Positions 6,210 to 50,018 are shown, numbered from the stretch's first letter. The stretch: DNA of 64,000 nucleotides from Palaeococcus ferrophilus DSM 13482 (GCF_000966265.1 NZ_LANF01000012.1:1-64000), one strand, 5' to 3'. The notes: a model not told the origin generated them from the sequence alone. A program made the numbers and translations.

Positions 6210-7289
6210 TCAACCTCCATATTTGGAAATAAGCTCTGATATTTTCACATGAGTTATCGGGAAGCCCAAAGACGTGAGATATTCTCCGATTCCATGTCCA
6301 TACGGCCCCACAGAGACTACAATACCACCATTTCTGCGGAGGTCATCGATGTCCCCACCTGTCCCCTTCTGAAGTGAGAGGAACTTGATAGACCCGCCGA
6401 CTTCAGAGGCATGTCTTAAGACGTACTCGAATGCAGGAGATTTTTCAATCAAACGTTGTTCCTCATCCTTTCGGAGCAATCCTTCCTTAATAATGTAAAG
6501 TATGGGGCGCGAATACCAGTATTGTGGAAGAACACGATTTTCAGCCGAGAGAGGCACTATTTTGGACAGACTCCTACTCCCAACATGGTACACCTTCAAC
6601 AGGTCAGGATGAAACCCCAAAGAGGGTAAATTCCTGAGAAGAAACCGTACGTCAAGCCTCCATTTTGAGAGTAAAATGCTCTCCTTGATGTACCTGAGAA
6701 TGAGATCAGCAGTGGAGACTAGAGGATCAACTTTGTCCCCGTTGGGGATTACTCTAAGTTCACTGGCTCGTTTTGAAAGTTCATCCCATGCCACCGTTTG
6801 AGGGGAAGAATTAAAGTTGTCAATATGAACCTTAGGCATTGTGTGATTGAGCCTGGATACAACCACCCACGCAGGAACGTACGCAAAGTAAGACTTCAAA
6901 ACATTTTTCAGGAAGGTCATAACGCCCTTATGGTGACCATTTGGCATATAAATTTGCTTAACGCCAAAGGAGGCAAAAACAAAGTTTATAATAACATCAT
7001 TGGGAATAACAACGTCGTCAACAAATTCCTTCATGAAAAGCAGATATTCAGTAGGATCTCCGTCCCCCCTGATAAGATAGCCTCTCAAGTCTGAAGATGA
7101 AAACACCCATCTAGGCGTTTGTATTCCCATACTATCTTTAAACTGCTCAAAAAATTCTCTGTATGACTGAAGGTATTCACTAAAATCTGAATCCCTGACA
7201 CTGACTGCAACCCCTATCCGTGCAATAAAAGTCCCATGCTGTCCAGCGAATTTGATATCTCCCTCATCGGAGCCAATGATCAAACCCAT
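6210..7289 (-). CDS. Unknown protein inserted in the PolD operon; DUF3800/RNase H-like candidate
   Basis: A 359-residue protein with no confident family. The start resembles the first strand of DUF3800-type proteins, which are predicted RNase H-fold nucleases: I-I-G-S-D-E-G-D (D8, E9, D11). Further acidic positions in a similar order are V-H-I-D-N-F (D157), N-G-D-K-V-D (D185, D188) and V-S-T-A-D-L-I (D195). This is a weak resemblance, not a match I can verify. ATG 7289 is two bases after the polB stop, with GAGGGG before it, so it is translationally placed in the operon. The DNA is clearly more AT-rich than polB and polC and uses AT-ending codons, which suggests transfer. Known Thermococcales carry polB and polC side by side, so this gene is probably an insertion. 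Confidence 0.75.
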   Translation of the reverse strand: MGLIIGSDEGDIKFAGQHGTFIARIGVAVSVRDSDFSEYLQSYREFFEQFKDSMGIQTPRWVFSSSDLRGYLIRGDGDPTEYLLFMKEFVDDVVIPNDVIINFVFASFGVKQIYMPNGHHKGVMTFLKNVLKSYFAYVPAWVVVSRLNHTMPKVHIDNFNSSPQTVAWDELSKRASELRVIPNGDKVDPLVSTADLILRYIKESILLSKWRLDVRFLLRNLPSLGFHPDLLKVYHVGSRSLSKIVPLSAENRVLPQYWYSRPILYIIKEGLLRKDEEQRLIEKSPAFEYVLRHASEVGGSIKFLSLQKGTGGDIDDLRRNGGIVVSVGPYGHGIGEYLTSLGFPITHVKISELISKYGG

Positions 7290-7291
7290 GC

Positions 7292-9226
7292 TCACATCCC
7301 CTCGCACCACTTGCTGAAATCAACAACCGTCTTCAACCTGGCGGTGCCCACGTCAACTATCGGAACCTTCGCGGGGGTGGGCACTATGTTCACCATCTTC
7401 TGGAACTCCGTCTGGGCCTGCCACGTGGCGCTGTTGAGGAGGAACACCCCTCTGTAGACCTGGTAATCGAGAACGTGGACGTGCCCCATCTGCACGAAGT
7501 CCGGAACCTCCTCTATAACGAGCAAGTCCTCGGGGTCGGGTGCAACGGGCACCTTTCCTCCGAAGGTGGGGGCGAGATGGCGCAGCTTCAGGAGTTCCAC
7601 CATGGGCCTCGCAGGCTCGTGGTGGCTGGTGTTGGGCACGTTTCCGACAATGTCCTCTATGCCCCTCCCGTGCGCTATTAGGAACTTCCTTCCATGGAGG
7701 TCGAGGACGGCGGGGTTGCTTATTATCGTAGTGTTCTTGAGCTTTAAGAGGGGATAGGCGTACTCCTCGTAGAAGCCGGGCTGGGGTAGGGCGGTTCTGG
7801 CCGCGTCGTGGTTTCCAGGCCCTATGAACACCTGGATGTGCTCAGGGACGTTGGAGAGGAGGTTGGCTAGGGCCTCGTACTGGTCGAATATATCCGGTAT
7901 GAGGAGCTCGTTGTACTGGCCCGGGTAGATGCCAACGCCATCAACCACGTCGCCCGCTATTATGAGGTATTTGAGCCTGTCCAGGATTTCTTCCTCCTCT
8001 CTGCTCGCGGTGTAGCCGTTGAGCCACTTCATGAACTTCATGAAGGCCTTCTCGCAGAAGGTGTCGGACCCAACGTGGATGTCGCTTATCAGCGCTGCAT
8101 AGACGGGCTCCTCGAGGGGCGGCTTCTCCCTGCGGTAGAGCGGAACGTCGGGGAGGTAGATGTGCTCCGCGAAGAAGAGGCCCCTCTTGGAGTAGTAGCC
8201 CGAGAAGGCCACCACACTGTCTAGGAGAACCTCCCACACCTTGGAGTAGTCGGGGTTGTCGCGCTTGATGAACACCTTCACGGTTCCGGTGGCGTCTTCC
8301 AGCTCGAACATGAAACCCTTCCTGGTTTCCCTCTTGGAGTTCACGAGGCCTATTATCGTGACCGGGTCCTCGTAGCCCGCGGTGTAGCTGAGCCTCCCTA
8401 TGTCCACAACGCCCGTGAGCTCGTTTGTGTCGCGGAGAATCCGGCGCAGCTTCCTGAGTCTGCTCCTGAAGTGGAGCTCGTAGGAGCGGATTATTATCTC
8501 CCCCTCCTTTGAGGCGGCGTTCTTGACCTTCGGTGGTGTGAGCTTCACGTTCCTTACGTCGAACTCAACCCTCGCCTCGGAGGGCATCTCCGCGGCCCTG
8601 GGCCTGAAGCCCTCCCTGGGAGTCACCTTGAAGTCGGCGTAGACGGAATAACTCTTGGCCCCGATCTCTTCAGGGGGCTCCTCCTCGAGGGGGACGAGAA
8701 CACCGTAGTCGGAGTAAACCGCCTTGACCGCACCCTCATCCCCGTTGTAGTCCCCGTTGGACCCAGCCCATGTTCCATTGGAAACCAAGGTTTCATCCCC
8801 GTTGGTTAATGGTTCTTCCATTTGAACGTCCTCATTGGAAAATTCAGGACTTTCGGGGGCGCTTTCCACCGCCGGGGATTCCTCAACAGCCGTGACCTCA
8901 ATAGAAGAGTTCTCGACCCCTGCAGATTCCCCCATTAGGAGTTCTTTTTCCTGTGGAACCGCCCCCTCCGTGCCGGATTCCATCCCCTCCACGGAAGGCT
9001 CTTCGACAGATTCATGCTCTCCATTAGCTCCACTGGAAATCAAGCCCTTCCATTTGATGAACTCCTCCGCGGTCCCCTCATCAATGACGAACGTTCCCCT
9101 GGACTTGGCGAACTTCACGAGCTCGGCGAGGGTGAAGGAGCCGTTCTCGTAGTGGTGGGCCAGCGTGTAGTACGCGGGGGGCGTTATCAGGTAGTTGTTC
9201 TTTATTAAATCTTCAACGAGCTTCAT
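7292..9226 (-). CDS. polB: DNA polymerase II (PolD) small subunit DP1
   Basis: DP1 provides the Mre11-like 3'-5' exonuclease of PolD and binds DP2. This 644-residue protein has a short helical N-terminal domain (1-65) and an acidic low-complexity linker rich in E, S and N (about 65-190). An OB-fold follows (about 265-360), then a calcineurin-like phosphoesterase domain (about 375-600). The metal motifs are intact: S-D-I-H (381-384), G-D-V-V-D (425-429), G-N-H-D (471-474), A-H-G-R (518-521) and G-H-V-H (581-584). The start ATG overlaps the cdc6 stop by one base (TGATG), so the two are coupled. The linker is the only variable part. Confidence 0.97.
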   Translation of the reverse strand: MKLVEDLIKNNYLITPPAYYTLAHHYENGSFTLAELVKFAKSRGTFVIDEGTAEEFIKWKGLISSGANGEHESVEEPSVEGMESGTEGAVPQEKELLMGESAGVENSSIEVTAVEESPAVESAPESPEFSNEDVQMEEPLTNGDETLVSNGTWAGSNGDYNGDEGAVKAVYSDYGVLVPLEEEPPEEIGAKSYSVYADFKVTPREGFRPRAAEMPSEARVEFDVRNVKLTPPKVKNAASKEGEIIIRSYELHFRSRLRKLRRILRDTNELTGVVDIGRLSYTAGYEDPVTIIGLVNSKRETRKGFMFELEDATGTVKVFIKRDNPDYSKVWEVLLDSVVAFSGYYSKRGLFFAEHIYLPDVPLYRREKPPLEEPVYAALISDIHVGSDTFCEKAFMKFMKWLNGYTASREEEEILDRLKYLIIAGDVVDGVGIYPGQYNELLIPDIFDQYEALANLLSNVPEHIQVFIGPGNHDAARTALPQPGFYEEYAYPLLKLKNTTIISNPAVLDLHGRKFLIAHGRGIEDIVGNVPNTSHHEPARPMVELLKLRHLAPTFGGKVPVAPDPEDLLVIEEVPDFVQMGHVHVLDYQVYRGVFLLNSATWQAQTEFQKMVNIVPTPAKVPIVDVGTARLKTVVDFSKWCEGM

Positions 9227-10479
9227 CAGAACAGCCTCCTCTGCCTGTGGAAGTCCATCGCGAGGAGCGCCTGGAGGTGGTAATCCTTCCGGAACATGTT
9301 CTTGACCTTGAAGGGGGGTATGTTGAGCCTTATCTCTTTTGTCCTGCCGTAGCGGCCCTTGCTCACAACCTTGGCGTTTATCACTCCGAGCATGTCGAGC
9401 TCGTTTATGAGGTCGCTCACGCGCCTCTGGGTGAGGGGCTCGACGTCGAGGGCATCGCAGAGCTCCCTGTAAACCACGTAAACCTCACCGGTGTGAACCG
9501 GGAGGGCGTTGTCCTCCTCGAGGACAACCACCGCGTAGAGGACGAGCTTTGAATGGAGGGGGAGGGTCTTTATGACCTCCTCCATGGTGTCCTGCTCTAT
9601 CTTCTCCTGGGCCTTCCTGACGTGCCGCTCAAGGACCTTCTCACTCCCCTCGCGCTCCGCTATCTCACCGCTCACCCTGAGGAGGTCGAGGGCCTTTCTA
9701 GCGTCTCCGTGCTCCTTGGCGGCAAGGGCTGCACAGAGTGGAATCACCGCCGGATCAAGCACTCCCTCGTTGAAGGCCTCGCTCGCCCTCTGCTCGAGAA
9801 TATCCCTCAGCTGGGAGGCATCGTAGGGCGGGAAAACAACCTCCTCCTCGCTCAAACTCGACAGGACCCTGGCATCCAGGAACTCCTTGAAGCGGAGGTC
9901 GTTGGATATTCCTATTATACTCACCCTTGCCCTGTGGAGCTCCGTGTTTATCCTCGTGAGGTTGTAGAGTATGTCGTCGCCGTTCTTCTTGACGAGCTTG
10001 TCAATCTCGTCCAGAACGATGATTATGAAGCGCTCCTTGGCGTCCAAAACCTCCTTGAGTTTGGAGTACACCTCGTCAGTGGGCCATCCCACAAGGGGAA
10101 CCTCGAAGCCACTCTCGTAGCGGAAATGGTTCACTATGTTGGCCAGCACGCGGTACTGAGTATCAACCACCTCGCAGTTGAGGTATATGACCTCCACAGG
10201 GACGTTGTACTTCTCGGAGACGCGCTTGAGCTCATCCGTGACGAATTTTATGGTGACTGTTTTACCCGTTCCCGTTTTCCCGTAGACGAATATGTTGGAA
10301 GGGGTTTCTCCCTTGAGAACGGGGACGAGAATGTGGGCGAGGGTTTCAATCTGCTCCAGCCTGTGAGGTAGCTCCTTTGGAGTATAACTATGCCTTAAAA
10401 CCTCCTTATTTCTGAAAATACGCCGTGCATTAAGATACCGCTCAAATAGCGAATCAAGATAACGCTGTTCCGTAACCAT
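9226..10479 (-). CDS. cdc6: Orc1/Cdc6 origin initiator ATPase
   Basis: A 417-residue initiator of the Orc1/Cdc6 AAA+ family, which binds ORB repeats and loads the MCM helicase. Walker A G-K-T-G-T-G-K-T is at residues about 67-74, Walker B L-D-E-I-D at about 156-160, and sensor I falls within I-I-G-I-S-N-D. A C-terminal winged helix with Q-R-R-V-S-D-L-I provides ORB recognition. Two adjacent ATG codons (10482, 10479) follow GGAGGTG; the second has the better spacing. It heads the polB - polC cluster and lies beside the origin region at 11356-12043, the arrangement known in Pyrococcus and Thermococcus. Confidence 0.96.
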   Translation of the reverse strand: MVTEQRYLDSLFERYLNARRIFRNKEVLRHSYTPKELPHRLEQIETLAHILVPVLKGETPSNIFVYGKTGTGKTVTIKFVTDELKRVSEKYNVPVEVIYLNCEVVDTQYRVLANIVNHFRYESGFEVPLVGWPTDEVYSKLKEVLDAKERFIIIVLDEIDKLVKKNGDDILYNLTRINTELHRARVSIIGISNDLRFKEFLDARVLSSLSEEEVVFPPYDASQLRDILEQRASEAFNEGVLDPAVIPLCAALAAKEHGDARKALDLLRVSGEIAEREGSEKVLERHVRKAQEKIEQDTMEEVIKTLPLHSKLVLYAVVVLEEDNALPVHTGEVYVVYRELCDALDVEPLTQRRVSDLINELDMLGVINAKVVSKGRYGRTKEIRLNIPPFKVKNMFRKDYHLQALLAMDFHRQRRLF

Positions 10480-43391: not shown

Positions 43392-43724
43392 GTAGTCTGG
43401 TGGTTACAGGATTTTAAAAGCCTTACCCAACGTTCCATGGCGAGAGCATGCCGTACCGGGCAATCGAGCACCTTATGGATATAAGCGAGTGGCTCTGGAA
43501 GAGAGGGCTTTAGGTCCGGTCCTCAAATTCAATGGGTTCACTAAAAAGATCATGCTATCCCCCTTCCTGTTTCTCACCGTGTTCTTATATGGTCTTGAAC
43601 TTGTATTACTATGTAACTGTGAACTAACAAGTTTATACTCATTAGCTGTAATTAGAACTTCCTCGTACAGTAAAACTTTTAAGGATTCGGTCGTCATTAC
43701 TAATGCAAATTCGGAGGTGTTACT
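43392..43724. other. Gap with a gene remnant and the exoprotein operon promoter
   Basis: It contains the methyltransferase promoter (minus) and a 21-codon reading at 43448-43513 (M-P-Y-R-A-I-E-H-L-M ... K-R-G-L, then TAG) that looks like a shortened gene. A markedly AT-rich stretch follows. The plus-strand TATA-like AACTTTTAAGG (about 43675-43685) and GGAGGTG (43714-43720) precede the first gene of the operon. Confidence 0.5.
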
Positions 43725-44090
43725 ATGAAGCGCGGGGTGATGCTCGGAGTACTCCTGGTTGGAAGCCTTCTTGTAGGCCTCGTAAACGCCGCAAGCAGTG
43801 TTTCGGCCCAAAGCTGTGTTACCACGTGGGACCACAACAGCGACGTAAGGGAGTGGAGTCAGGACGAGTGGGTGTGGGCCGGAATCCACGGACAAGTGCT
43901 CGTATGCGACGGAAAATTCCAGAGAATCCTCACCGACACGGTTTATGGAACAACCACAGCGAAGGGAATGAAGGACTGGTACGGACAAATTAGGATAACT
44001 TCAAAAATCGCATACGCCAGAGTGGGCTACACTCGATACAATGGAGAAACTGGAACTGCACTCGCGGATATTCCAAATTATTTCAGATGA
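43725..44090 (+). CDS. Small secreted two-cysteine protein
   Basis: 121 residues. The signal peptide (about 1-23, M-K-R-G-V-M-L-G-V-L-L-V-G-S and V-N-A-A) leaves a mature protein of about 98 residues rich in W, Y and T with only two Cys (about 31 and 62), which can form one disulfide. The order of charged and aromatic residues (H-G-Q-V-L-V-C-D-G-K then A-Y-A-R-V-G-Y-T-R-Y) recalls small secreted beta-sandwich bacteriocins of the lactococcin-972 type, but this is only an impression. GGAGGTG precedes the ATG. It is the first gene of a seven-gene run ending in an ABC transporter. Confidence 0.8.
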   Translation: MKRGVMLGVLLVGSLLVGLVNAASSVSAQSCVTTWDHNSDVREWSQDEWVWAGIHGQVLVCDGKFQRILTDTVYGTTTAKGMKDWYGQIRITSKIAYARVGYTRYNGETGTALADIPNYFR

Positions 44091-44105
44091 TTCGGGGGGG
44101 AATCC

Positions 44106-45122
44106 ATGCGAAAACTCTTCGCTTTAATTTTTATAGTCTTGTTGTCATTGTGGCACCTCCCCTTAGTAAACTCCTTCCCGTATTGGTTTCATGAGGGAGC
44201 TTATGTTAAATATGCCCTTCTCTCACCGCAGGGAGAGGATAACGAGAAGACCAATATTTTTGAGGTTTATCCGCCTTTGATGCCCCCAGATGCTAGGGAG
44301 AAGGTGTTGGCAATTGAAGAAGTCAGCGAAGATGAACCGGTGTCTATTTTTGTTAGAGGGCACGTGTTCCTGACGTTTAGGGTCGTGTCCATAAAGAATG
44401 ACTCTGCCAAAATTAACATCACGCTGGAGCTTAACGATGCATGGGCGTATAACAGACACAGAATAGGCGTGCTAAAGCTCAGTAGGGTTCTGTTGCTTAA
44501 CCGGAGCGACATGATGTATTATGGTGAAAACGGAGCCGCACTTGGAAGACCCATCTTCTTTATGAATCCTTTAAGTCCGCCCCATCGGGATGAACTTTGG
44601 ATGAACGTCTCGCCGCTGGTTAAGTTTGGGATATCCACAAAAAACCTTGTGGTAAAAAACGTATCTTATTCCTGGATGGTGGATAAAACGCTTCACACGT
44701 ACTACCGCGATTTTGTTTCGCCGTACATTTATATTGAGAGCAACAGAGCACCCTTTTTCTGGAAACTTCCCGACGGATACATCTCTGGAAGCCTCCATAT
44801 TGGTGCTGTTTACGACTTTGATACCGGGATAATGCTAACCTCTGTGTTTACCAAAGCCTCCCCTGAACTCCTCTCATTGGGTATTGTGCTTGGGAGCGAC
44901 TATGATTACCGGGCAGGCGAAAAACTATCAAAACTTATTGATGAGGAGAAAACCGACAGGGAATGGTGGCAACCGGGATTTAATCTCTACGACACAAACA
45001 TTAAGTTCCCGGAGACTTCGTCAACAGCAACTCCAAACACGGGAATGAAGTACTTCTTCGCGGTTTCCCTCGTCTGCTTGCTCCTCACCATCATTCTCAC
45101 CTGGAGGTGGAGAAGAGGATGA
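44106..45122 (+). CDS. Membrane-anchored exoprotein, paralogue A
   Basis: 338 residues, unknown family. A signal peptide (about 1-22) precedes a mature start F-P-Y-W-F-H-E-G-A-Y-V-K-Y-A. A mostly beta extracellular body follows, with N-glycosylation sequons (N-I-T, N-V-S). A C-terminal membrane helix (about 313-332) ends in W-R-W-R-R-G. It is closely similar along its whole length to the next protein (shared D-M-x-Y-Y, F-x-N-P, G-F-N-L-Y-D-T-N, K-F-P). The coding DNA is AT-richer than the flanking genes. A GGGGGG run precedes the ATG, and the stop overlaps the next start. Confidence 0.8.
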   Translation: MRKLFALIFIVLLSLWHLPLVNSFPYWFHEGAYVKYALLSPQGEDNEKTNIFEVYPPLMPPDAREKVLAIEEVSEDEPVSIFVRGHVFLTFRVVSIKNDSAKINITLELNDAWAYNRHRIGVLKLSRVLLLNRSDMMYYGENGAALGRPIFFMNPLSPPHRDELWMNVSPLVKFGISTKNLVVKNVSYSWMVDKTLHTYYRDFVSPYIYIESNRAPFFWKLPDGYISGSLHIGAVYDFDTGIMLTSVFTKASPELLSLGIVLGSDYDYRAGEKLSKLIDEEKTDREWWQPGFNLYDTNIKFPETSSTATPNTGMKYFFAVSLVCLLLTIILTWRWRRG

Positions 45123-46153
45123 GAAAAACCGCCATCATAGTCCTCGCGGTAATAACGCTCCCAATAATAATACCTCCCGCCTACTCCCACCCATACTGGT
45201 TCAAAGAAGGAGCCTACATCAAATACGCAATGAAAATGCCCGACAATCCTGAGAAAAACGAGGTAAACATCTTCATGATCTGGCCAAGACTCCTTCCAAA
45301 GGGCGCTTACGAGCAGATTAAAGATGTTTATGAGGGAAATGGGAGCCTCTTCAAAATTGACAACCGCAGCATGATATCGCTCTTCGTTACGGGAGATTCG
45401 TATTTGAGTTTTGAGGTTTTCAACGTTACCAACAAGAGTGCTCTTGTGAGGGTTACTCTGGAGTTGAACAACGTGAGTGTGAGACCGGGGGCAACACTCC
45501 CCTGCCTGGTTCTTTCGAAGGTTCTCCGCTTAAATCTGACCGACATGATATATTACGAGGAGGATGGCACACCAATCGGGCCCCCAACTTTCTTCATAAA
45601 CCCCGCCGACCCGCCGAAAAAAGGGGATTATCTTCTCACACCAACTTTTCTGAAGAAATACGACCTCAAAGGGGACGATATTGTTATAACGAACGCCTCC
45701 TTCACGTGGATGGAGGGCAAAATCCTCCACGCGCACTACGGGGATTTTATCCCCCCCTATTTGTTTGTCGAGAGCAAGGGTGCGTATGTTATTGACGATC
45801 TAACGAGAGGTGGGGGTCATACTATAATAACAGAGCTGGTTTACGAACCGGATACTGGTGTTCTAATAACAACAATTTTTGCGGATATGACGTCAGAACT
45901 GACAAGTTTGGGGGTTATAGGAGCGATTGCCCTTGATAGAGCTAACTCACGGAAACTGTACGAGCTTATTGATAAAGGTAAGGACGACAAGGAGTGGTAC
46001 GGACAGGGGTTCAACCTCTATGATACTAACGTTAAGTTCCCGGATTACGGAACCAAACACTCCCCCTCAACTCCCCTGAAGTACTTCTTTGCCCTGGCAC
46101 TGCTCATCCTCATTATAGCCTTTGTCTGGAATGAAAGGAGGTGGAGGCGGTGA
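45119..46153 (+). CDS. Membrane-anchored exoprotein, paralogue B
   Basis: 344 residues, tandem paralogue of the preceding protein. The mature part starts H-P-Y-W-F-K-E-G-A-Y-I-K-Y-A and ends in a membrane helix plus R-R-W-R-R. The L-x-N-L-T-D-M-I-Y-Y-E-E-D-G-T segment and the G-F-N-L-Y-D-T-N-V-K-F-P tail match its sister. ATG 45119 overlaps the upstream stop (ATGA), with GGAGGTGG before it; a GTG at 45107 is possible. No enzyme motif was seen. Two copies kept side by side suggest a hetero-oligomer or two substrates. Confidence 0.8.
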   Translation: MRKTAIIVLAVITLPIIIPPAYSHPYWFKEGAYIKYAMKMPDNPEKNEVNIFMIWPRLLPKGAYEQIKDVYEGNGSLFKIDNRSMISLFVTGDSYLSFEVFNVTNKSALVRVTLELNNVSVRPGATLPCLVLSKVLRLNLTDMIYYEEDGTPIGPPTFFINPADPPKKGDYLLTPTFLKKYDLKGDDIVITNASFTWMEGKILHAHYGDFIPPYLFVESKGAYVIDDLTRGGGHTIITELVYEPDTGVLITTIFADMTSELTSLGVIGAIALDRANSRKLYELIDKGKDDKEWYGQGFNLYDTNVKFPDYGTKHSPSTPLKYFFALALLILIIAFVWNERRWRR

Positions 46154-47736
46154 GATGGAACGCGCTCTTACTGGCGGTTTTGGTAGCGGGTCTGCTAATC
46201 CCTCCCGTTTACTCTACCGGGGAAAACGGTGAGATGGGCTACCTCTTCGTTGAGGCGCCGGATGGACTGATAGCTGAGATACCGGGGATGGGTTTCTACC
46301 CCACCCCGGTGGGCCTGGCGCTTCCCCCCGGGAACTACACCGTCAGGATAACCGGAAACGTCACGGTGGTTGCTCAGGTTTCCGTGGTGGCCGGAACTTC
46401 TACAATCGTTCGCGTAGATCCCGACACGATCGGAGACGCCGTCTCGGGCGAGGGGATAGTCTCCATAAGGGCCACCTTCAACGAGAGCGCCAACTACAGC
46501 CAGGAAAAGCTGCATCCTCCCTTTGACCCCTTCGCATTTCCCGGTGAATGTGGGGGCAACTCTGGGTATATCAACATCTCAAAACCCTACCCCATGGGAC
46601 TCATTGTAAGGGGAAAAGGAGAGGTGTACATAACCCTCAATGGAACTTTCATGCACATGGGAGACGATGGCGATGGAAACCCCTGTATGTTTTACGTGGA
46701 GGTATTTCCCGGTGGGGACAGTAGAATGGAGAGCATCAGGAACGTCACCTACGTCGTCCCGTTGGCGCGGCTGGAGATAGACTCAACCCCGGAAAACCTG
46801 ACGATGTACCTCAACGGGGGCCACAACCGCTACATCTTCTACACCCCCATGGGCTTTTACGTCCCCGCGATTCCCCACGACGTCTACAACGCAACCGCCG
46901 TTGGTTTCTACGGAACGATACGGATTCCGGTCATCCATAAGCTCGACACCCACACCGTGGGGATAGCCGACTACCACCATCTCGTTGAGAGCGTCGTGAA
47001 GGTTGTCCCCAACGAGACGTATCACATCCACGTGAACATGGAGAAGGTCAAGTCCGGACTAATGGTGGAGAGGAAGATAGTGAAAACTGTCCCGCTTGAA
47101 ATTGAGTCGGAGCCCTCAAACGCATCGGTTATAGTCACGGACGGTGTTCTGAGGGTCTTTACCACCACTCCGGCTACCCTCTTCCTCCCGCCTGGGAACT
47201 ACACCGTCATAGCCTCCAGGGGCAATCTCTCCGCCAGGGAGTCCATAGTTCTGAGGGAGGGTTCCAGTGTCCTCCTGAAACTCATCCCCGCCAACGCGAC
47301 TCTCAGCCTCTCAGTGCATCCGGAGAACGCGACAGTACTACTGAACGGGGAGGAAGTTAAGATTGGAACTCTCACCATAAGTCCTGGGCGCTACAATCTC
47401 ACGGTGAGGGCAGCCGGCTACATCACAAAGAGCCTGGATATAATCCTGGCCCCAAATGAATCCAAGAGGGTCGAAGTGAGCATGGAGAGAAAGCCAGCTG
47501 TGGAGAATTCGGAAATCATTATCTCGCCACCATCAAGCGGAGAGAACGACATCACACAGGAGGAGAACACACAGGACAAACAAAACAATGTTCCCGGGAA
47601 CACTCAGATTTTTCCAACGCTCCCAGACAGCAGTGCCCCCCATCCGCCAAGGAAGGATAACAGCTCCTTATGGGTCAAATTAAGTGCCCTAATGGCAGTC
47701 ATTGTAGTGGTTTACCTCATACTCAAAAAGATGTAA
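46150..47736 (+). CDS. PEGA-repeat membrane-anchored exoprotein
   Basis: 528 residues. A signal peptide (about 1-22) is followed by at least four PEGA-like beta modules. These can be seen in P-T-P-V-G-L-A-L-P-P-G-N-Y-T-V, Y-T-P-M-G-F-Y-V-P, T-T-P-A-T-L-F-L-P-P-G-N-Y-T-V and L-T-I-S-P-G-R-Y-N-L-T-V. A low-complexity stalk (about 445-500) leads to a C-terminal membrane helix. PEGA modules are usually found in surface-layer or wall-binding proteins. The start is GTG 46150 in a GTGA overlap with the preceding stop, with GGAGGTGGAGG as ribosome site. Confidence 0.85.
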   Translation: MRWNALLLAVLVAGLLIPPVYSTGENGEMGYLFVEAPDGLIAEIPGMGFYPTPVGLALPPGNYTVRITGNVTVVAQVSVVAGTSTIVRVDPDTIGDAVSGEGIVSIRATFNESANYSQEKLHPPFDPFAFPGECGGNSGYINISKPYPMGLIVRGKGEVYITLNGTFMHMGDDGDGNPCMFYVEVFPGGDSRMESIRNVTYVVPLARLEIDSTPENLTMYLNGGHNRYIFYTPMGFYVPAIPHDVYNATAVGFYGTIRIPVIHKLDTHTVGIADYHHLVESVVKVVPNETYHIHVNMEKVKSGLMVERKIVKTVPLEIESEPSNASVIVTDGVLRVFTTTPATLFLPPGNYTVIASRGNLSARESIVLREGSSVLLKLIPANATLSLSVHPENATVLLNGEEVKIGTLTISPGRYNLTVRAAGYITKSLDIILAPNESKRVEVSMERKPAVENSEIIISPPSSGENDITQEENTQDKQNNVPGNTQIFPTLPDSSAPHPPRKDNSSLWVKLSALMAVIVVVYLILKKM

Positions 47737-47772
47737 AGAGTCGAGCTCAAGATGCCCAAAGGGGTGAGAACC

Positions 47773-48543
47773 ATGAAAACTCAGATGAAATGGGAGCTTG
47801 AGGACCCCTACAACCTCATAGTCTTCATGTTTGGTTTCGTTATGCTGGGCATCACTTTCTTTTCCGGCCTGACCAGCAACGACGTTACATTCATGGTAAG
47901 CGGGCCGGATGAGATTATAGTTTCAGAGGCGGCCAAGACCCTGGGCCTCACGCTTCCGAGGCTTGGAACCGAAGAGTACACAATATTCGCCCTTACCGGG
48001 GCCCTGCTGGTTTCTTTGATGATGAGATACGACAGGGACACGAGAGTCGCCAAAAGCGTCTATAGCCTGCCGGTCAGGAACTATTCCGTGGTGCTCTCAA
48101 AGGCATTATCTGCCATGGTGCTGCTCTTCCTCGCCTCTCTCCTTCCCGCGTTCCTGGCGTTCATCTACATTCACGGGGACGTTTCAAGCCTAATCGGGAA
48201 GACACTCTTCGACGAGGGCTTCCTGGCGGGTTACCTAATCTACTGGGCGATGATGGTGCTCTACGTGGTCTCGGTGTCGGCCCTTGTGGCAATGCTCTCC
48301 CCCAATACGTTCGCCTCCCTCCTGGGAAGCATCACCATCCTCTACGCCCCCCTCGTGCTCAAACTGAGGAGCCTCCCACCGGCGGTGATCGACGACGCGT
48401 TCTTCAAGGCCTACACAACCCAGTTTTACCCCGCGGATAGGGTAGCGGCGTTCATTGACGGCTCCTTCTATATGGGGATCCTCCTTCCAGCGGTGATGCT
48501 GGGGGCGGCCCTTATACTGAGCGAATGGAGGGATGTCTCATGA
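47773..48543 (+). CDS. ABC-2 type transporter permease
   Basis: 256 residues with six membrane helices in the ABC-2 pattern; A-K-S-V-Y-S-L-P-V-R-N-Y-S-V-V-L-S-K-A between helices 2 and 3 is typical. It should pair with the ATPase two genes downstream. ATG 47773 has GGGGTGAG before it; the ATG at 47752 is weaker. Its stop overlaps the next ATG (ATGA). Confidence 0.87.
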   Translation: MKTQMKWELEDPYNLIVFMFGFVMLGITFFSGLTSNDVTFMVSGPDEIIVSEAAKTLGLTLPRLGTEEYTIFALTGALLVSLMMRYDRDTRVAKSVYSLPVRNYSVVLSKALSAMVLLFLASLLPAFLAFIYIHGDVSSLIGKTLFDEGFLAGYLIYWAMMVLYVVSVSALVAMLSPNTFASLLGSITILYAPLVLKLRSLPPAVIDDAFFKAYTTQFYPADRVAAFIDGSFYMGILLPAVMLGAALILSEWRDVS

Positions 48544-48977
48544 GGCTTCTAAAGGCGGTGCTGCTGTCGATGGTCATTTTGACGCTCCTTGTGTTCCCCG
48601 TAGAGAAGAACGCACTGAGTCAGCCGATTTCCGAGGTTGTGCTTGTGGGACAGGGCATCATGGTGCCATCGTCCGGAATCGCCATGTTAAGTTCCAACGC
48701 CGATGAGGGGACCCAATACACCGTCAGGGTCTTCGATCCGGAGGATAGAAGGGCAATCCTTGAAAGAAACGTGACCGGAAGTTTCAGGGACAGGGTTAAG
48801 CTGGCCCACTCAGGGCCGTACTACTTCTCGGTCCAGACAATGACCCCAGTAACGATGGCGGTGAGGGTTATCAACAGGTACCCCTCAGTGACCACACTCA
48901 ACATTAGGTACGGTATAGGTGGGATAAGCGCCCTCCTTCTGTCGGTTATCCTGCTGCTGGAGGGGAGGAGAAGATGA
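48540..48977 (+). CDS. Small membrane protein of the ABC operon
   Basis: 145 residues: an N-terminal hydrophobic helix, a beta-rich domain of about 90 residues (V-V-L-V-G-Q-G-I and Y-T-V-R-V-F-D-P-E-D) and a C-terminal membrane helix. No family is recognised. It is coupled on both sides by ATGA overlaps to the permease and the ATPase, so it is probably a third subunit of that transporter, exposing a domain outside. Confidence 0.75.
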   Translation: MRLLKAVLLSMVILTLLVFPVEKNALSQPISEVVLVGQGIMVPSSGIAMLSSNADEGTQYTVRVFDPEDRRAILERNVTGSFRDRVKLAHSGPYYFSVQTMTPVTMAVRVINRYPSVTTLNIRYGIGGISALLLSVILLLEGRRR

Positions 48978-49636
48978 TAACTGCGAAGAACCTCACAAAG
49001 CGGTTCGGAAAGCTCGTGGCCCTGGACTCGGTGAACCTGGAGATCGATAAGGGGGTAACGCTGATACTCGGCCCCAACGGCGGCGGCAAGAGCACCTTCC
49101 TGAACCTCTGCGCCGGATTATACCGGCCAAGTGGGGGAGAGATCAAAGTTCTGGGTGAGAACCCATGGAGCAATGCCCGTCTGAGAAAGAAAATAGGTGT
49201 GTCCTTTGACCCTCCCGCGCTTCCCCGACACAGGAGCGGAGAGGAATGGCTTAAATACCTGGCAGAATTCAAGGGACTGGACGAGAGTGAAGTTACTGAG
49301 GCCGCAAAACTCTTCTCCACTAACGGCTATCTGGATAGAAAGATAGGCGAGTACTCCGCAGGAATGCTGAAAAGGATCAGCCTGGCCCAGGCGTTTCTAG
49401 GCAGTCCCGAACTCGTCCTTCTCGATGAGCCCCTTGCAAACCTCGATCTCAAGGGGATTAAGGAGGTGGCCGGAATTCTGAAGGAACTAGCGGAGAAGGG
49501 CACCAATATGGTGGTAATCTCCCACATATGGCGCCCCCTAGTTGAATTCGCGGACAGGGTGGTTGTCATTGCTGCAGGGAGAGTGGTGCTGGAAGGGACC
49601 CCCGACGAGGTGATCCCCAATATCGAGGAGATTTAA
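48974..49636 (+). CDS. ABC transporter ATP-binding protein
   Basis: 220 residues. Walker A is G-P-N-G-G-G-K-S-T (33-41), the signature is the variant Y-S-A-G-M-L-K-R, and Walker B is L-V-L-L-D-E-P followed by a D-loop L-A-N-L-D. The switch His is in V-I-S-H-I-W-R. It is the last gene of the seven-gene run and powers the ABC-2 permease. Single-NBD exporters of this type often handle peptides, lipids or drugs. Confidence 0.93.
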   Translation: MITAKNLTKRFGKLVALDSVNLEIDKGVTLILGPNGGGKSTFLNLCAGLYRPSGGEIKVLGENPWSNARLRKKIGVSFDPPALPRHRSGEEWLKYLAEFKGLDESEVTEAAKLFSTNGYLDRKIGEYSAGMLKRISLAQAFLGSPELVLLDEPLANLDLKGIKEVAGILKELAEKGTNMVVISHIWRPLVEFADRVVVIAAGRVVLEGTPDEVIPNIEEI

Positions 49637-49932
49637 CCCTTCCTCCATTCCTCCATGAGGAGGGGTATCGTCCTCCGCACCCTCTCCCTCTCATCTTTAT
49701 CAACCACGAGAAAAACCTCCTGAACTGAGCCCCCGCTTTTTGCCACCAGCTTTAGTCCAGTTTGCGTTTCCCTCGTCACCTTTATCTCGAAGCCCCGGGA
49801 GTCGCTCGCGTAAATTCTCCCGGGGATAACCTTCTTAACGCCTGGAATTTCCGCTATCTTTTCCAGCGGCTTCTCGAGCCCCTTCAGGAAATGGTGCTCC
49901 CTTTTCACTCCACGCTTGAAGTGCCTGGGCAT
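49633..49932 (-). CDS. DUF2103-like conserved protein
   Basis: 99 residues. It begins M-P-R-H-F-K-R-G-V-K-R-E-H-H-F and has I-P-G-V-K-K-V-I-P-G-R-I, then V-A-K-S-G-G-S-V-Q-E-V-F-L-V; the His/Arg-rich start fits the DUF2103 metal-binding type. The function is unknown. ATG 49932 follows GGTGGT. Its end overlaps the ABC ATPase gene tail to tail. Confidence 0.7.
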   Translation of the reverse strand: MPRHFKRGVKREHHFLKGLEKPLEKIAEIPGVKKVIPGRIYASDSRGFEIKVTRETQTGLKLVAKSGGSVQEVFLVVDKDERERVRRTIPLLMEEWRKG

Positions 49933-50018
49933 GGAAGGTGCTACCACCCGAATTTTTTAAGGGTTTGGGAACCAGAAGAGAGGCTCAAAACGAAGAAGAT
50001 AAAAAATTGGGGGGAGGT

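Follow-up and report, generated by a model that had tools for sequence, protein, structure and literature searches.

The seven genes at positions 43725–49636 of a 64,000-nucleotide stretch from Palaeococcus ferrophilus DSM 13482 (GCF_000966265.1, NZ_LANF01000012.1:1-64000; hereafter the window) probably encode a secreted effector of bacteriocin-like kind, together with anchored exoproteins that give cognate immunity and an ATP-binding cassette (ABC) transporter shared for self-protection. The window lies within contig 12 of a 2.2-Mb genome of the Thermococcaceae. Covariation between the second half of the first protein and the next exoprotein, loss of the first gene from otherwise retained operons, and the matching of unpaired exoproteins to paired ones in other genomes provide strong evidence for one option of an earlier, sequence-only reading, that of a small secreted effector with its immunity. 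Covariation, effector loss and spare partners together form the evolutionary pattern of secreted toxin–immunity pairs that are accompanied by orphan immunity genes. The searches covered 94 Thermococcaceae genomes and, with profiles, 115 genomes of the phylum. Judged by sequence comparison, the operon is built of a chassis (the gene 1 N-half, the PEGA protein, the permease, the small bitopic protein and the ATPase) and a cassette (the gene 1 C-half and the next exoprotein).

43725–44090, plus strand: gene 1, small secreted two-Cys protein, predicted effector, 121 amino acids (aa)
43806–43961, plus strand: conserved N-half of gene 1 (residues 28–79), evolving with the chassis
43962–44087, plus strand: hypervariable C-half of gene 1 (residues 80–121), predicted specificity region, tracking the next exoprotein
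44106–45122, plus strand: gene 2, membrane-anchored exoprotein, 338 aa, predicted from covariation to be the cognate immunity partner of gene 1
45119–46153, plus strand: gene 3, anchored exoprotein paralogous to gene 2, 344 aa, predicted orphan immunity protein for a foreign gene-1 type
46150–47736, plus strand: gene 4, PEGA-repeat anchored exoprotein of the chassis, 528 aa (PF08308, E 1.9e-13)
47773–48543, plus strand: gene 5, ABC-2-like permease; listed open reading frame (ORF) from 47752, 263 aa (weak PF12730 match, E 0.034)
48540–48977, plus strand: gene 6, small bitopic membrane protein of the ABC unit, 145 aa, between permease and ATPase in related operons
48974–49636, plus strand: gene 7, ABC ATPase, 220 aa (PF00005, E 3.9e-23)

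Gene Order and Covariation

Sixty loci were compared for gene order. The order 1-2-(2)-3-4-5-6-7, or a variant of it, recurs in dozens of loci across the Thermococcaceae, so that the operon stands far beyond chance. Type A, to which the window belongs, consists of gene 1, one or more exoproteins, the PEGA protein, the permease, the small membrane protein and the ATPase. In types B and C, gene 1 and an exoprotein are followed by permease, small protein, ATPase and PEGA protein; type D differs from these in having two exoproteins. Type E carries gene 1, repeated exoprotein–PEGA pairs, permease, small protein and ATPase. Type F begins with a different small secreted protein, followed by one or more exoproteins, permease, small protein and ATPase, without PEGA. 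The sequence-only reading had taken the tight gene coupling as a sign of one machine; a single operon with conserved order is upheld, but not a uniform seven-part machine, since a swappable cassette sits in the chassis.

Across nine type-A loci, the N-half of gene 1 has a mean amino acid identity of 0.81, the PEGA protein 0.72, the permease 0.86, the small protein 0.81 and the ATPase 0.85. The corresponding values for the C-half of gene 1 and the first exoprotein are 0.52 and 0.49. The distances of these last two are correlated with a Mantel r of 0.92, which is 0.91 when the permease distance is removed and 0.90 over 13 modules, three of them from one genome; the permutation P values sit at their floor. 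With the chassis, the C-half and the first exoprotein show r values of about 0.1 (−0.02 to 0.23). The N-half correlates with genes 4–7 (r 0.56–0.67), with the first exoprotein at 0.14 and with its own C-half at 0.17. Within the chassis, r is 0.79 between genes 4 and 5 and 0.86 between gene 6 and the permease, and for the adjacent first exoprotein and PEGA protein it is 0.23. As the two halves of gene 1 and this last pair are so weakly correlated, adjacency alone cannot account for the covariation of C-half and exoprotein. As far as these distances indicate, the unit of exchange thus comprises the second half of gene 1 together with the gene that follows it.

The same pattern is seen in type F. 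Over 17 modules, the C-half of the small protein correlates with the exoprotein (r 0.89) and not with the permease (r about 0), and the identity of the small protein falls from 0.90 in the signal to 0.63 in the N-part and 0.42 in the C-part. In two pairs of type-F loci (L145/L192 and L143/L180), the permeases are 95% identical, the effector C-halves 30–35% and the exoproteins 25–29%. Homology of the type-F small protein to gene 1 is unsupported (hhalign 58% over 29 columns).

Loss of Gene 1 and Unpaired Exoproteins

Five of the 15 type-A loci have a gutted, deleted or frameshifted gene 1; three of these lie in single-contig genomes, and sequencing errors may account for some lesions in draft genomes. 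The gene is gutted in frame in genome G031, deleted in G016 and G039, reduced to a C-terminal remnant in G042 and frameshifted in the signal in G028. Most genes downstream of a lost gene 1 are retained, the exceptions being a broken permease (G016), a broken PEGA gene (G028) and an ATPase that was not found (G042). Among ten type-C loci, gene 1 is absent from five and a remnant in one. Where it is absent, the ratio of nonsynonymous to synonymous substitution rates (dN/dS) is 0.14–0.27 for the exoprotein (five loci) and 0.14–0.20 for the permease (four loci); by this measure, both are under purifying selection.

Most additional tandem exoproteins resemble the paired exoproteins of other loci. 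All 14 unpaired exoproteins of type A match a paired exoprotein of another genome at 67–90% identity, and the matches are often reciprocal: the second exoprotein of L117 is 80% identical to the first of L119, and the second of L119 is 75% identical to the middle one of L117. In type F, 24 of 26 match paired exoproteins elsewhere at 50–99%, the two that do not being both from L186. G031 keeps four different exoproteins and no working gene 1; one of them, beside the gutted gene, is an 85% identical copy of gene 2. The C-terminal remnants of gene 1 agree clearly with the gene-1 type of the nearest exoprotein in G031 (matching the window) and G039 (matching L124), and those of G042 and G028 do so at the level of the larger clade only. 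At 73% identity, gene 3 is closer to the exoprotein paired with gene 1 at L115 than to gene 2 (38%), the latter value agreeing with their description as tandem paralogues. On this comparison, gene 3 most likely serves as the orphan partner of a gene 1 in another genome.

Operon Structure and Expression Signals

All seven ORFs are present on the plus strand, joined by overlaps or short gaps as had been described. Genes 1 and 2 are separated by 15 nt; genes 2 and 3 share a 4-nt ATGA overlap and genes 3 and 4 a 4-nt GTGA overlap, and ATGA overlaps also join gene 5 to gene 6 and gene 6 to gene 7. A gap separates genes 4 and 5. Because nearly all close homologues have 256 aa, the probable start of gene 5 is 47773, preceded by GGTGAG, rather than 47752; the gap is then 36 nt. 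Three further features flank the coding region.

43670–43684, plus strand: TATA-like promoter element GTAAAACTTTTAAGG, about 40 nt upstream of gene 1, the lone match in the window (0.01 expected)
43713–43719, plus strand: ribosome-binding site GGAGGTG of gene 1, read from the sequence, position conserved
49633–49947, minus strand: 104-aa flanking gene, insertion-site marker outside the system, adjoining most type-A operons and the type-D operons

The TATA-like element is kept upstream of gene 1 in every aligned related type-A locus, and tandem copies of gene 1 each have one. A longer antisense ORF (43473–43988, minus strand) overlaps gene 1; the conserved frame is that of gene 1.

By hydropathy analysis, the products of genes 1–4 and 6 start with a signal-like segment, and those of genes 2, 3, 4 and 6 have a C-terminal transmembrane segment. 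The gene 5 product shows roughly five hydrophobic segments or more, and the gene 7 product shows none. Export or a membrane location therefore applies to six of the seven proteins, in agreement with the sequence-only reading. Its assignments of a PEGA exoprotein and an ABC ATPase were likewise confirmed, genes 4 and 7 being the only ones that pass the curated cut-offs of named families. Genes 1, 2, 3 and 6 matched no named family in Pfam or NCBIfam. The permease has weak ABC-2 matches and forms a family of its own.

The exoprotein model is beta-rich, with a mean predicted local distance difference test (pLDDT) score of 69. LmcA was considered as its fold and not used (best match E 0.014, TM score 0.23).

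The Predicted Effector

Gene 1 begins with a signal-like hydrophobic segment (residues 1–28). Members of its family are beta proteins of 112–121 aa, and Cys31 and Cys61 are invariant in the family alignment. The structure model, built on five sequences, consists of six strands arranged as two three-stranded halves, with a core pLDDT of about 95; one of five models has high confidence. The modelled strand layout makes a Cys31–Cys61 link plausible. No significant match to the model was found in the PDB (Foldseek, none at E ≤ 0.001) or in a viral structure library. The most plausible candidate, 4k15 (Listeria Lmo2686), was too weak to be used (probability 0.9, TM score 0.38, E 0.08).

A general search of genome contigs returned four loci for gene 1 and none with gene 2. 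No relatives of gene 1 were found in IMG/VR, and none of genes 1 and 3 in PLSDB. At L168 (G010:C4) and L169 (G006:C1), gene 1 survives as isolated relics that carry two in-frame TAG stops and lack neighboring operon genes.

Proposed Mechanism and Alternative Explanations

In the mechanism that we favor, gene 1 would be exported by a Sec-type route and act on related cells, presumably as a toxin. Its N-half would be the family-wide part, and the variable C-half would set specificity. At the outer membrane face, gene 2 would bind or neutralise its specific effector and so provide immunity; gene 3 would perform the same task against the effector of another species, and spare exoproteins would be kept against effectors of other strains. 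Genes 5–7 together with the PEGA protein, a putative member of the unit, would constitute a shared self-protection transporter for whichever exoprotein is present, comparable to LanFEG/LanI, and would remove rather than export. With a Sec-type signal of its own, gene 1 does not need the ABC unit for export, and the ABC export considered in the sequence-only reading can be dispensed with. By analogy, the simplest role of the ABC unit would be general self-protection with the exoprotein. The separate promoter of each tandem gene-1 copy, and presence or absence at a fixed site with empty sites, also count as supporting points.

Several results weigh against this mechanism. None of the proteins matched a toxin, bacteriocin or immunity family in Pfam, NCBIfam, PHROGs or PADLOC; gene 1 had no match of any kind in these four and so no recognisable toxin domain, and the modelled proteins gave no significant structural match. 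The modules compared are not fully independent, and physical linkage contributes to covariation. Lastly, exoprotein, permease and ATPase occur without a small secreted gene at L137 (same genome, G000:C4:102000-113000) and L144 (G013), and given such loci the exoprotein–ABC unit can have another role. L137 adjoins a ferritin-like gene, and the context of L144 is identical.

These two loci may be read as pointing to a housekeeping exoprotein–ABC transporter for envelope lipid or substrate handling, with gene 1 as a substrate-binding or regulatory accessory. Their shared context and the exoprotein–ABC neighbors in a second archaeal phylum (see below) agree with it; L137 may indeed be a housekeeping paralogue, and an ancestral housekeeping role of the unit is possible. 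As an account of the operon, however, this is very improbable, because it offers no reason why the C-half and one exoprotein should be hypervariable in step beside a conserved permease. If the operon assembled or displayed a variable surface structure or adhesin, the exoproteins would hold gene 1 as a surface subunit, and the PEGA protein and ABC unit would help to place it. This role would suit the export or anchoring of most products, the PEGA and beta-rich exoproteins, and the frequent recombination of variable surface proteins. Such assembly, the other option of the sequence-only reading, is nevertheless disfavored by the frequent loss of gene 1 with the remainder under purifying selection, and by the restriction of each gene-1 type to one exoprotein type while spare types accumulate; it appears improbable.

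The covariation fits equally well a secreted pheromone with a cognate surface receptor, serving kin recognition or quorum sensing, whose ligand, gene 1, is cleared or imported by the ABC unit. Hypervariable ligand–receptor pairs within a conserved operon are how pherotypes such as Staphylococcus agr evolve. Yet the exoproteins have only a short tail, made up of a few basic residues, after the transmembrane segment, hence no cytoplasmic signalling domain, and the operons contain no conserved kinase or regulator family. Moreover, up to five stockpiled exoproteins, and the retention of the other genes after gene 1 is lost, suit protection better. A pheromone is therefore unlikely, and the effector–immunity system remains the preferred explanation.

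Comparison with Known Systems

The operon resembles lactococcin 972-like loci (lactococcin 972 and streptococcin B, scbABC) in that a gene for a small Sec-exported protein is followed by predicted-immunity membrane and ABC genes. Streptococcin B combines Sec export with predicted immunity and transporter genes, and strains lacking the peptide retain the rest of scb (PMC11796350), which parallels the gene-1 losses described above. The lactococcin-972-like character proposed in the sequence-only reading holds for this gross layout, and family membership is unsupported: gene 1 and 30 family members had no Pfam match at E ≤ 1 to lactococcin 972, NCBIfam gave none, and hhalign gave a probability of 0.1% against lactococcin 972. 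The fold 2LGN is not among the 50 listed Foldseek matches of the five-sequence model. The anchored beta-rich exoproteins, the PEGA protein and the exchanged C-half/exoprotein cassette further distinguish the Palaeococcus operon.

With polymorphic toxin systems, it shares a conserved N-part, a variable C-part, a matched neighbor, orphan partner genes and interspecies recombination. However, the effector is a single small beta protein instead of a large trafficking protein and has no known nuclease or toxin domain, and its partner lies outside the cell in association with an ABC unit. In lantibiotic producers, LanI and LanFEG act together in self-protection (PMC8538875); here, too, a specific surface-anchored partner accompanies a general ABC-2 transporter, and among NCBIfam models gene 7 scores best against TIGR03740, the lantibiotic-protection ATPase, at 135 bits under a cut-off of 309.75. 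The exoproteins differ from LanI in their C-terminal transmembrane anchor and show no detectable homology to it. VARTIG islands (PMC8416519) are likewise patchy, specific to Thermococcales, composed of membrane and secreted proteins, and variable at the C-terminus through interspecies exchange with matched neighboring membrane proteins. They are centered on a large immunoglobulin (Ig)-domain protein, and the VARTIG paper mentions no ABC transporter; in the window, the first gene encodes only 121 aa, and no Ig or CARDB match was found among the seven proteins. No described system of such composition was found in Thermococcales, the survey of Makarova et al. (2019, mBio) being outside the comparison. 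The joint exchange between species of the variable effector half and its matching guard points to a microbe-against-microbe system in archaea that is apparently undescribed.

Relatives in a Second Archaeal Phylum

The exoprotein profile detected relatives in 35 of 398 genomes of a second archaeal phylum. An ABC ATPase gene lies within a few kilobases in all 12 loci examined, and exoprotein, permease and ATPase form one run in at least three (L201, L202 and L207). An ORF of 128–164 aa directly precedes the exoprotein in seven of 11 readable loci (L199–L209), a count taken without a random-gene control and hence a lead. These small ORFs have an N-terminal hydrophobic segment and are aromatic- and glycine-rich, with sequences unrelated to gene 1. 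In two further archaeal phyla, searches without a positive control gave no matches to the exoprotein profile. Tentatively, and with somewhat less than even probability, these loci would belong to an archaea-wide antagonism class in at least two phyla, combining a fast-changing small secreted effector, a cognate anchored exoprotein belonging to a single broad family and a dedicated ABC unit, with effectors unrelated in sequence occupying the same position and with novel folds.

To our knowledge, few archaeal antagonism systems have been tested. The locus supplies concrete pairs of effector, guard and orphan guard that are testable in a genetically tractable hyperthermophile, and predicts immunity groups across species. 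It illustrates how specificity modules may be traded among archaea by way of conserved flanks, and is a source of small proteins that are heat-stable and have no confident known fold.

Distribution and Insertion Site

Gene 1 was found in 26 of the 115 genomes of the phylum, all of them Thermococcaceae, and the permease in 62, all Thermococcaceae apart from one weak match. Within the family, occurrence of the operon is patchy. Type A is nearly always beside the same 104-aa gene. In four genomes (G012, G041, G027 and G001), the flanks of the site are 6–32 bp apart and the operon is absent, and in G047 a PEGA remnant stands alone at the type-A site. Since empty sites occur between the same flanks, the operon comes and goes at a fixed chromosomal site.

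In the longest array, L100 (G042:C4:36001-56000), a single gene 1 precedes five exoproteins and four PEGA proteins; the PEGA gene therefore duplicates along with the exoprotein in type E. At L114 (G080, positions 6700–9400), a decayed exoprotein and several unrelated opposite-strand ORFs lie between two gene-1 modules, as if other cargo had been inserted between them.

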